Shown here piece by piece: positions 12,267-22,005 of a stretch of 41,268 bases of DNA (the first letter of the stretch is position 1; each line of letters starts with the position of its first letter). The notes under the pieces are model-generated. The model was not told where the DNA came from. It saw nothing but the letters and a program-made list of their open reading frames with translations, and did no database searches. The stretch is from Gemmatimonadaceae bacterium (GTDB lineage: Bacteria; Gemmatimonadota; Gemmatimonadetes; Gemmatimonadales; Gemmatimonadaceae). The stretch covers positions 1 to 41,268 of the forward strand of contig JABFYH010000166.1 in the NCBI GenBank assembly GCA_013361335.1, in the 5' to 3' direction. A program made the translations under genes and the position numbers.

Positions 12267-12401
12267 AGCGCCTGCCGAGCCGGCAACGAGCGAGCGCGGC
12301 AGGCAGTGCGTGGCGGGACATCGGTGAGCCCGCGGGTCAGACAATTGTCTGGGTACGGCATGTTCCGCTCCCTGGACAATCAGTTTCCTCAGGAGTGGTA
12401 C

Positions 12402-12608
12402 ATGCGTACGAAGGGCAAGGTGAAGTGGTTCAACGACGCGAAGGGGTTCGGCTTCATCACCCCGGACAGCGGTGAGAAAGACTGCTTCGTGCACTACAGC
12501 GCGATCCAGGGCAACGGCTTCAAGTCGCTGGCCGAGGGAGACGCTGTGGAGTTCGACATCGTGCAGGGAGCGAAGGGTCCCGCGGCGGAGAACGTCACCA
12601 AGGCGTGA
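12402..12608 (+). CDS. Cold-shock protein (CspA family)
   Basis: A 68-residue single cold-shock domain with both nucleic-acid-binding motifs: RNP1 as KGFGFI (in [11 protein letters not shown]) and RNP2 as DCFVHYSAI. CspA proteins bind single-stranded RNA and DNA and act as RNA chaperones. An AGGAG about 8 bases upstream supports the ATG. The gene has its own promoter with a long leader and a strong terminator, so it is monocistronic. RNP2 has Tyr (FVHYS) where the second copy at 34636 has Phe (FVHFS). The two proteins share the run [11 protein letters not shown], so they are close paralogues. Confidence 0.95.
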
Positions 12609-12623
12609 TGCGCCTGGTCGTCA

Positions 12624-12658
12624 ATGGGGCGAGCGGTCCGTCGGACCGCTCGCCCCAT
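12624..12658 (+). terminator. Terminator of the first cold-shock gene
   Basis: A perfect 17-bp stem (12624-12640 with 12642-12658) is followed by TTTTCATTTT. It is the clearest intrinsic terminator in the window and the only one with a good U-tract. It may also serve the convergent minus-strand gene, whose stop codon is at 12661. Confidence 0.85.
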
Positions 12659-12660
12659 TT

Positions 12661-13050
12661 TCATTTTGCGCGCGAGCGGTAGCGCGTCGGCGGGCCGCGT
12701 CGCGGAGTGGGGGCCGATTCGAGTGCCTCGCGCAGGCGACGCTCGACCGCCCGCTCGAGGAGCGCCCGGTCGAGCGCGAGGTGGACGGCGCCACGCTGGA
12801 TGATGGCAGCGCCGTCGCCGTCGAGCAGCTCTCGGGCGAGCGGCAGCGCGTCCCGAACGCTCAGCCCCAGCACGGCGTGGAGCTCTCGCGTGAGGGCGAG
12901 GTGGAGGAGGGTCGGGCGGGGGATGCGCCGTGCCACGCCACGTCGCGCAGCCGCGACGCCGGGGACGTCGTGCTGGGAGAGGACGTTGTCGGTCCACTTG
13001 ATCGGCGCGTCGATGGCAAGTGATGTGACGGCAACGTCATAAAAGCGCAC
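12661..13050 (-). CDS. Small putative DNA-binding protein (HTH-like), unknown family
   Basis: A 129-residue protein. Residues ~10-45 (SLAIDAPIKWTDNVLSQ...ARRGVARRIPR) read as a small helix-turn-helix followed by a basic wing; ~46-75 (LLHLALTRELHAVLGLSVRDALPLA) are hydrophobic helices; the tail is Arg-rich. It could be a small repressor or an antitoxin-like regulator; this is inference. The GTG start at 13050 is supported by AGGA seven bases upstream. That ribosome-binding site lies inside the right half of a perfect palindrome (13057-13074), and a second copy lies 49 bp further up. This suggests autoregulation. No partner toxin is adjacent. Confidence 0.6.
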   Translation of the reverse strand: MRFYDVAVTSLAIDAPIKWTDNVLSQHDVPGVAAARRGVARRIPRPTLLHLALTRELHAVLGLSVRDALPLARELLDGDGAAIIQRGAVHLALDRALLERAVERRLREALESAPTPRRGPPTRYRSRAK

Positions 13051-13056
13051 GCTATA

Positions 13057-13074
13057 TTCCTAAATAAGTAGGAA
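13057..13074. promoter_or_regulatory. Palindromic operator 1, TTCCTA-N6-TAGGAA
   Basis: A perfect dyad (13057-13062 with 13069-13074) in an AT-rich island. On the minus strand it includes the AGGA ribosome-binding site of the 129-residue gene, so a bound protein would block its expression. Confidence 0.6.
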
Positions 13075-13106
13075 AATGCCCGTCTTCCAGGGCGATACCC
13101 AGTTGC

Positions 13107-13122
13107 TCCTAATTTAATAGGA
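13107..13122. promoter_or_regulatory. Palindromic operator 2, TCCTA-N6-TAGGA
   Basis: A second perfect dyad with the same half-site and same 6-base spacer as operator 1. Centres are 49 bp apart. It lies between the small regulator and the outer-membrane gene at 13320, so it could affect either. Confidence 0.6.
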
Positions 13123-13319
13123 CAAGTCGGGTCCCGCCAGACGCACTGAAACCGCCTGAGCGACCGCCGTACGCCCACGCCGAGCGTCGCCGCTTGGCGG
13201 ACCAATCGACGGCTGCACTGGTGCCGTTGCCGCCCATGAATCGTCAAACCGCAAAGACCTGCGGGGGCGACCAGGCCGCACCTGCCACCGCGCATCCCAA
13301 CTTCAGAGGAACCCCCGAC

Positions 13320-13829
13320 ATGACCAGACGAATTCTCGCCGCGCTCGCCGCAACCCTGCTCGCGGTGGCCCCCGCCACGCTGCACGCCCAGTCGTTCAGC
13401 CTCGCCGGCGGGCTCGCCATGCCCACCAGCGCCTTCGGTGACGCCGAGCAGTCCGGCTACAATGGCACGATCGGTCTCAACTTCGGCGCGCCGCTCCTCC
13501 CCGTCGGGGCGCGTCTCGAAGGCAGCATCAACGGCTTCAACCACAAGAACAACCTCAGCGGCGACACGCGCGTCCTGAGCGCGACCGCGAACGCGACCGT
13601 CGGGCTGGGAATGCCCTACCTCATCGGCGGCCTCGGGTACTACAACGCGCGCGTCACGGTGGGGTCGCTGGGCGAGGCCACGAAGAGCGGGGCCGGCTTC
13701 AACATCGGCGCCGGCCTTACCTTCCCGCTGCCCGCGCTCAGCCCCTACGTCGAGGTGCGCTACCACCAGATGACGGGCGACGCGAGCGACGTCAAGTTCA
13801 CGCCCATCACCTTCGGCATCAAATTCTGA
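13320..13829 (+). CDS. Small outer-membrane beta-barrel protein
   Basis: A 169-residue protein with a clear signal peptide (MTRRILAALAATLLAVAPATLHAQ, cleavage after Ala in HA-Q). The mature part alternates polar and hydrophobic residues in about eight strands, and ends with a C-terminal Phe (FGIKF), the usual barrel-assembly signal. It resembles the generic outer-membrane beta-barrel (OmpA/OmpW-like) group; the ligand or role is unknown. The ATG at 13320 is preceded by AGAGGA, which favours it over an in-frame ATG at 13194 that would place non-signal sequence first. A strong hairpin follows the stop. Confidence 0.85.
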   Translation: MTRRILAALAATLLAVAPATLHAQSFSLAGGLAMPTSAFGDAEQSGYNGTIGLNFGAPLLPVGARLEGSINGFNHKNNLSGDTRVLSATANATVGLGMPYLIGGLGYYNARVTVGSLGEATKSGAGFNIGAGLTFPLPALSPYVEVRYHQMTGDASDVKFTPITFGIKF

Positions 13830-21486: not shown

Positions 21487-21948
21487 TCAGCTCTCACCGG
21501 CGAGCTCGAGCAACCGCGTGGTCAGCGTCTGTCGGGCGGCCGCGGATCGCGTGACGATCAGGATCGTGTCGTCCCCGGCGATGGTGCCGAGCACCTCCTC
21601 GAACTCCTCCTGATCGATCGCCTCGGCAATCGGCTGGGCGCCGCTGCGGACCGTGCTGAGGACGATCAGCTCGCCGACCCCGTCGATCTTCGAGAACAAT
21701 TGGGGCAAGAGGTTGCCCAGCAATGGCTTGTCCTCATCGTCCGCCAATGACTCCGGGCGGACGTACCGCCCGCCGTCCTCGGTCGAGACCCGGGCGAGGC
21801 CGAGGTCCCGCAGGTCACGCGACAGGGTCGCCTGGGTGACGTCCATCCCCCGGGCCAGCAGCAGCTGCCGGAGCTCTTCCTGGCTCCCCACGACATGGGT
21901 CGCCACGAGGTCGAGGATAGCCGCCTGCCGCGCGTGCTTCTTCGTCAT
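21487..21948 (-). CDS. argR: Arginine repressor ArgR
   Basis: A 153-residue regulator. The N-terminal winged helix (about 5-70) has the ArgR pattern EELRQLLLARGMDVTQATLSRDLRDLGLARV, with the Ser-Arg of the recognition helix. The C-terminal arginine-binding and hexamerisation domain has the run IAGDDTILIVTRS, where the Asp pair that binds arginine is expected in the GDD. ArgR bound to arginine represses biosynthesis genes. The ATG at 21948 has GGAGG 4 bases upstream; GTG 21951 is possible but too close to it. It lies between argG and argC and is divergent from argC, which places it under the same ARG palindrome. Confidence 0.95.
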   Translation of the reverse strand: MTKKHARQAAILDLVATHVVGSQEELRQLLLARGMDVTQATLSRDLRDLGLARVSTEDGGRYVRPESLADDEDKPLLGNLLPQLFSKIDGVGELIVLSTVRSGAQPIAEAIDQEEFEEVLGTIAGDDTILIVTRSAAARQTLTTRLLELAGES

Positions 21949-22005
21949 CACTCCTCCGGAGGGTGGCCCAGTCTAGCACCGGCGGGACGCCGCGGGAAGC
22001 GCCCA

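Follow-up and report, generated by a model that had tools for sequence, protein, structure and literature searches.

What acts on two matching palindromes that lie beside a small gene in a 41,268-nucleotide stretch of Gemmatimonadaceae DNA (the window)? A sequence-only reading of the locus had proposed that the palindromes and a neighboring 129-residue "HTH-like" protein form an undescribed regulator family with its own operator, and it had suggested structure prediction and a search of related genomes as checks. Our analysis, which covered both, points to a small regulator that likely represses its own gene. The central features are as follows.

12661-13050, minus strand: gene for the predicted 129-amino-acid (aa) MerR-like winged-helix regulator, with a GTG start at 13050, homologues, and an AlphaFold2 (AF2) model of pLDDT 89.5
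13057-13074, no strand assigned: proximal dyad TTCCTA-AATAAG-TAGGAA (TTCCTA-N6-TAGGAA), a putative operator conserved upstream of homologues
13107-13122, no strand assigned: distal dyad TCCTA-ATTTAA-TAGGA (TCCTA-N6-TAGGA), a putative second operator, with a second copy in six genera
13058-13061, minus strand: AGGA, the likely ribosome-binding site, within the proximal dyad and 7 nt before the start codon

We confirmed both dyads in the sequence, with 49 bp between their centers. Of all 80-bp stretches in the window, the one that contains both has the lowest GC content (0.42), in agreement with their description as part of an AT-rich island. As also proposed, the proximal dyad covers the likely ribosome-binding site of the regulator, since its AGGA arm ends 7 nt before the GTG start. 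The exact motif TCCTAN6TAGGA occurs at only two places in the 3.75-Mb genome, namely the proximal and distal dyads, and relatives conserve them; however, when up to two mismatches were allowed in the window alone, four dyads were found compared to 2.2 expected, an unremarkable count. The case for the dyads is strong because of the two exact copies and, above all, because of their conservation in relatives. A search of Rfam found no RNA family at the dyads.

We take the 129-aa gene to be real, given homologues in at least 14 Gemmatimonadaceae genera. No family in Pfam, NCBIfam, or PHROGs accounts for the protein, and a PDB sequence search gave no convincing relative, its top entries being designed repeat proteins and alignments in which no stretch passed. 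PHROGs matches to head-tail connectors (best, 0.0025) were treated as noise. Pfam HTH_17 matched 7 of 77 family members (best, 6e-5), and MerR_1 also matched weakly in some. The AF2 monomer model, based on an alignment of 77 sequences (A3; pLDDT 89.5, pTM 0.80), has helices at residues 6-12, 17-26, 45-61, and 65-77, a beta hairpin at 82-93, and a C-terminal helix at 95-112. A single 18-residue C-terminal helix thus comes after the hairpin, and the model shows no sensor domain. With Foldseek, the top solved match was CvkR, followed by MerR-family regulators, with modest E values starting from 7e-3. By this model, which supports the label "HTH-like," the protein is a MerR-like winged helix of modest similarity, rather than a fold lacking a DNA-binding surface.

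Residues G38, R41, R118, G119, and P121 are invariant across the 77 sequences, R120 is present in at least 90%, and nearly all share the C-terminal tail RRGRPP. The window copy has RRGPPT in its tail (12661-12720), in which the arginine of the GRP core is missing; as the window derives from a metagenome-assembled genome (MAG), this may be a real change or an assembly error. The basic RGRP core expected of an AT-hook protein is nearly invariant in relatives and absent from the window copy.

Homologues were found in all 10 genomes of the window's genus and in 27 of 99 relatives, spanning 14 genera, all Gemmatimonadaceae. When 395 genomes of the phylum were searched with a profile, full-length matches were confined to the same family; 61 genomes sampled from the class gave the same result, and the named relatives found with the closer alignment were all Gemmatimonadetes or Gemmatimonadaceae (Gemmatimonadota) MAGs. 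The gene is mostly single-copy and syntenic, in the usual order argH - regulator - cspA (convergent) - ispG; across 78 homologue loci, cspA was a neighbor in 74 and ispG in 72. The neighborhood in the window includes the following.

12402-12608, plus strand: cspA, the convergent neighbor downstream of the regulator (Pfam CSD, 4.6e-32), present in 74 of the 78 homologue loci
12623-12659, no strand assigned: terminator-like hairpin, seen in the sequence between the convergent regulator and cspA
13320-13829, plus strand: divergent outer-membrane-like protein, present in 28 of the 78 homologue loci, with no Pfam match

At 12300-12657, mostly over the cspA coding region, Rfam gave a match to the cspA thermoregulator whose 66 bits fall below the threshold of 78. 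The possibility that the regulator replaces the arginine repressor was rejected because an ArgR-like protein is encoded in the window at 21487-21951. A phage or plasmid origin was also set aside, as queries with one or a few sequences matched nothing among phages, plasmids, or viral contigs.

In most homologues the dyad occupies the same position. Its general form upstream of homologues is WWTCCT-N8-AGGAWW, with a fixed width, and it typically ends 1-8 nt before the start codon. Strong dyads, those scoring at least 9 out of 10, occurred in 63% of the 78 homologue promoters compared to 0.8% of dinucleotide shuffles. At the same loci, approximately 10 kb of regulator promoter held 62 strong sites, while 862 kb of flanking sequence held 11, and the 267 regions examined upstream of cspA, ispG, argH, and g154 had no such site. 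A search that assumed no consensus found palindromes in excess solely where the spacer was even and the center fixed; with an N6 spacer, at least 7 of 9 positions matched in 60% of cases, compared to 9% in shuffles. A second copy of the dyad is present in six genera (g1, g2, g10, g14, g30, and g35), 28, 36, or 45-49 bp further upstream. The paired dyads are spaced near half-integral helical turns, unlike the classical looping arrangement. Among the g1 genomes, G004, G005, G006, and G008 have a degraded proximal dyad. Absence from the libraries, a conserved dyad, and a winged-helix model together support the proposed undescribed regulator family, which, though unnamed in the searched libraries, gains a testable candidate operator.

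The half-sites vary more than the geometry. Palindromes of equal width but different sequence are TATCCG-N8-CGGATA (G334), AATTTC-N6-GAAATT (G308), and TTATTCCC-N6-GGGGATAA (G259), and clade g13 has kept the protein with no clear canonical dyad. Such equal geometry with differing half-sites in related genera is a natural experiment that could show how the specificity of a winged helix changes. The predicted recognition helix is encoded as follows.

12973-13002, beginning at 12999-13002, minus strand: codons of the predicted recognition helix (residues 17-26, a helix in the AF2 secondary structure)

Within this helix, K18, R26, N22, and D21 are among the residues most associated with the TATCCT dyad (Fisher test), an association that comes from related sequences, with too few phylogenetically independent pairs to confirm it. 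By the Fisher test it is suggestive of co-evolution between the recognition helix and the half-site.

Two further observations concern the operator region of relatives. In most of the g13 loci L066, L067, L072, L120, L123, L126, and L127, the place of the dyad is taken by a conserved stretch resembling GAGTTTTGTTTATAATC, possibly a changed operator. The L087 promoter (G308) and L089 (G269) contain long palindromes that are close to perfect, CAAATAATTTC-GATATT-GAAATTATTTG; these include no ribosome-binding site and occupy the position held by the TATCCT dyad elsewhere.

A dyad over a ribosome-binding site could also act in the mRNA, where a proximal hairpin would hide the site and serve in translational control or as a thermosensor. 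The AGGA of the ribosome-binding site does form one arm of the proximal dyad, and the predicted hairpins reach -7.7 kcal/mol in the window and -14.5 (z, -4.1) in G027. However, the window hairpin is unexceptional (z, -1.35), and folding is poor in other homologues (L125, z +0.62; L111, z -1.12). Right arms of the form AGGTTA, which break the stem, recur in several genera. The distal dyad shares the consensus without carrying a ribosome-binding site, and the G308 palindrome has none either. The dyad of clade g19 lies directly against a TATAAT box, so that a transcript start would fall inside the dyad. Because stems are broken, several homologues fold poorly, and palindromes occur without a ribosome-binding site, the RNA hairpin is weakened as an explanation, and we consider it very improbable.

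The position of the dyads relative to predicted promoters is that expected of DNA operators for a repressor. Promoter-like scores of at least 8 were obtained in 44% of loci compared to 14% of shuffles. Where -10-like boxes are visible, in several relatives, they abut or overlap the outermost dyad, and in clade g19 TATAAT is directly followed by the single dyad. The region in the window itself yielded no clear sigma-70 promoter.

The mechanism that we infer is one in which the small MerR-like winged-helix protein would repress its own gene. A homodimer would bind each dyad, with a consensus half-site of WATCCT or WTTCCT and 8 bases between the cores, and the basic RGRP tail may contact the A/T-rich flanks. 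In lineages with two dyads, the distal one would sit at the -10 element or transcription start, while the proximal one would cover the ribosome-binding site immediately ahead of the start codon. The bound protein would block RNA polymerase and in this way keep its own level low and constant. We regard a lineage-specific autorepressor of this kind as likely; its operators, one or two in number, would lie over the promoter start and the ribosome-binding site.

The intergenic region that holds the dyads is common to the regulator and the divergent gene at 13320-13829, and the main target could instead be this outer-membrane-like gene, or argH. In 28 of the 78 loci the dyads do lie between the regulator and the divergent gene. 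They are close to the start codon of the regulator, however, not to that of the neighbor, and they persist in genera without the divergent neighbor, e.g., g2 and g19. A main target other than the regulator itself thus appears very improbable.

Sites elsewhere in the genomes also point to autorepression. In 60 genomes, WWTCCTN8AGGAWW matched at the regulator's own locus and at scattered other places; many of the latter have G/C-rich spacers, and their rate did not differ clearly from that in genomes without the regulator gene. With an extended site (A/T flanks required, up to two mismatches allowed), the regulator's own gene had a site in 22 of 22 genomes, and the only extras across these genomes were two weak sites, both in G022. 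A wider regulon was rejected as a candidate, given that in both scans, of 60 and of 22 genomes, whatever appeared besides the own-locus sites was compatible with chance. Since the extended site occurs almost solely at the regulator's own gene, no regulon with a strong site was found in the scanned genomes; this result covers strong sites, and weaker ones may exist. A core, single-copy regulator with strong sites almost only at its own promoter raises the question of why it is kept.

A rival reading is that the protein is a global binder of A/T-rich DNA, a silencer resembling Lsr2 or H-NS, for which the dyads are merely the strongest, autoregulatory sites. The absence of a dedicated regulon in the genome scans, the high-GC genome, and the conserved basic RGRP tail, as in AT-hooks, are consistent with this. 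On the other hand, the site geometry is strict, the predicted fold is a winged helix and not that of Lsr2 or H-NS, and the window copy lacks the arginine of the GRP core. We consider a global silencer very improbable and retain the dedicated autorepressor as the preferred reading.

The closest solved fold, CvkR (PDB 7xn2), is a MerR-type repressor of type V-K CRISPR-associated transposons (PMC9938897). CvkR is a small winged-helix homodimer that binds a palindrome, and altering the spacer length nearly abolishes binding; it represses cas12k and tnsB, with the site AnnACATnATGTnnT (PMC9938897). The structural match to the regulator has a probability of 1.00, an E value of 7e-3, and a TM score of 0.52, but identity is 17% over aligned columns, and CvkR sits in transposons whereas the regulator occupies a core chromosomal locus. 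Classical MerR proteins (CueR, NmlR, and BmrR) share the N-terminal winged-helix fold and palindromic sites. Unlike them, the regulator has no visible sensor domain, and while the classical MerR operator lies between -35 and -10 with a spacer of 19 nt or more, the regulator dyads, in loci with visible -10-like boxes, lie at or after these predicted elements and over the ribosome-binding site.

A relation to antitoxin-like proteins emerged within Gemmatimonadales. The profile also recovered proteins of 165-200 aa (loci L140-L156) that contain the whole regulator domain and RGRP tail, and hhalign matched the two groups at 99% (E, 3.5e-18). Both share the winged helix, beta hairpin, helix, and RGRP tail, and most of the longer, antitoxin-like proteins bear an extra C-terminal domain (YGVD...SPAERL). 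Each of the 14 adjoins a toxin-like gene, which is nucleotidyltransferase-like and matches DUF2204, DUF6036, and AbiEii weakly. They are patchily distributed, and the window genome gave no match to this family. A structure model of the antitoxin-like relative had only moderate confidence (pLDDT 76) and no solved match. At L140-L156 (e.g., L140:4007-5082), the winged-helix, RGRP, and YGVD/SPAERL protein is followed by an overlapping nucleotidyltransferase; this is apparently an undescribed AbiE-like pair.

The type IV AbiE antitoxins AbiEi and Rv2827c are small winged-helix proteins that repress their own promoters via repeated inverted repeats (PMC7319586). AbiEi is a monomer with a C-terminal antitoxin domain, a toxin partner, and 23-bp repeats 3 bp apart (PMC7319586). 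The regulator is similar in having inverted repeats in its own promoter and a relative that adjoins a nucleotidyltransferase. In contrast, its gene is solitary, each site is itself palindromic, with sites 28-49 bp apart, and the protein ends after the RGRP tail, without the C-terminal antitoxin domain. No nucleotidyltransferase toxin is adjacent; the downstream neighbor is the convergent cspA in 74 of 78 loci. By analogy, the solitary family would resemble an AbiEi-type autorepressor in action but falls outside AbiEi proper. The regulator and the autoregulatory half of an AbiE-like antitoxin probably have a common ancestor, but the regulator stands alone here, without a toxin.

Winged-helix autorepressors are a known kind; what is new here is the family, its paired palindromes over the predicted start and ribosome-binding site, its apparently self-only targets, and its link to antitoxin-like proteins, through which it may connect free-standing autorepressors with toxin-antitoxin systems. 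More tentatively, and on balance we think it rather unlikely, the regulator could be a vertically inherited, solitary protein that has common ancestry with a toxin-antitoxin autorepressor and has its own gene as its sole specific target. If this is true, it must serve the cell in some way other than through a regulon, for example by acting against related toxin-antitoxin elements that enter the cell or by shaping A/T-rich DNA.

Genus g19 contains fused or shortened forms of the antitoxin-like pair (L142:5018-5665, L145, and L147), in which the antitoxin-like part runs into a nucleotidyltransferase fragment.
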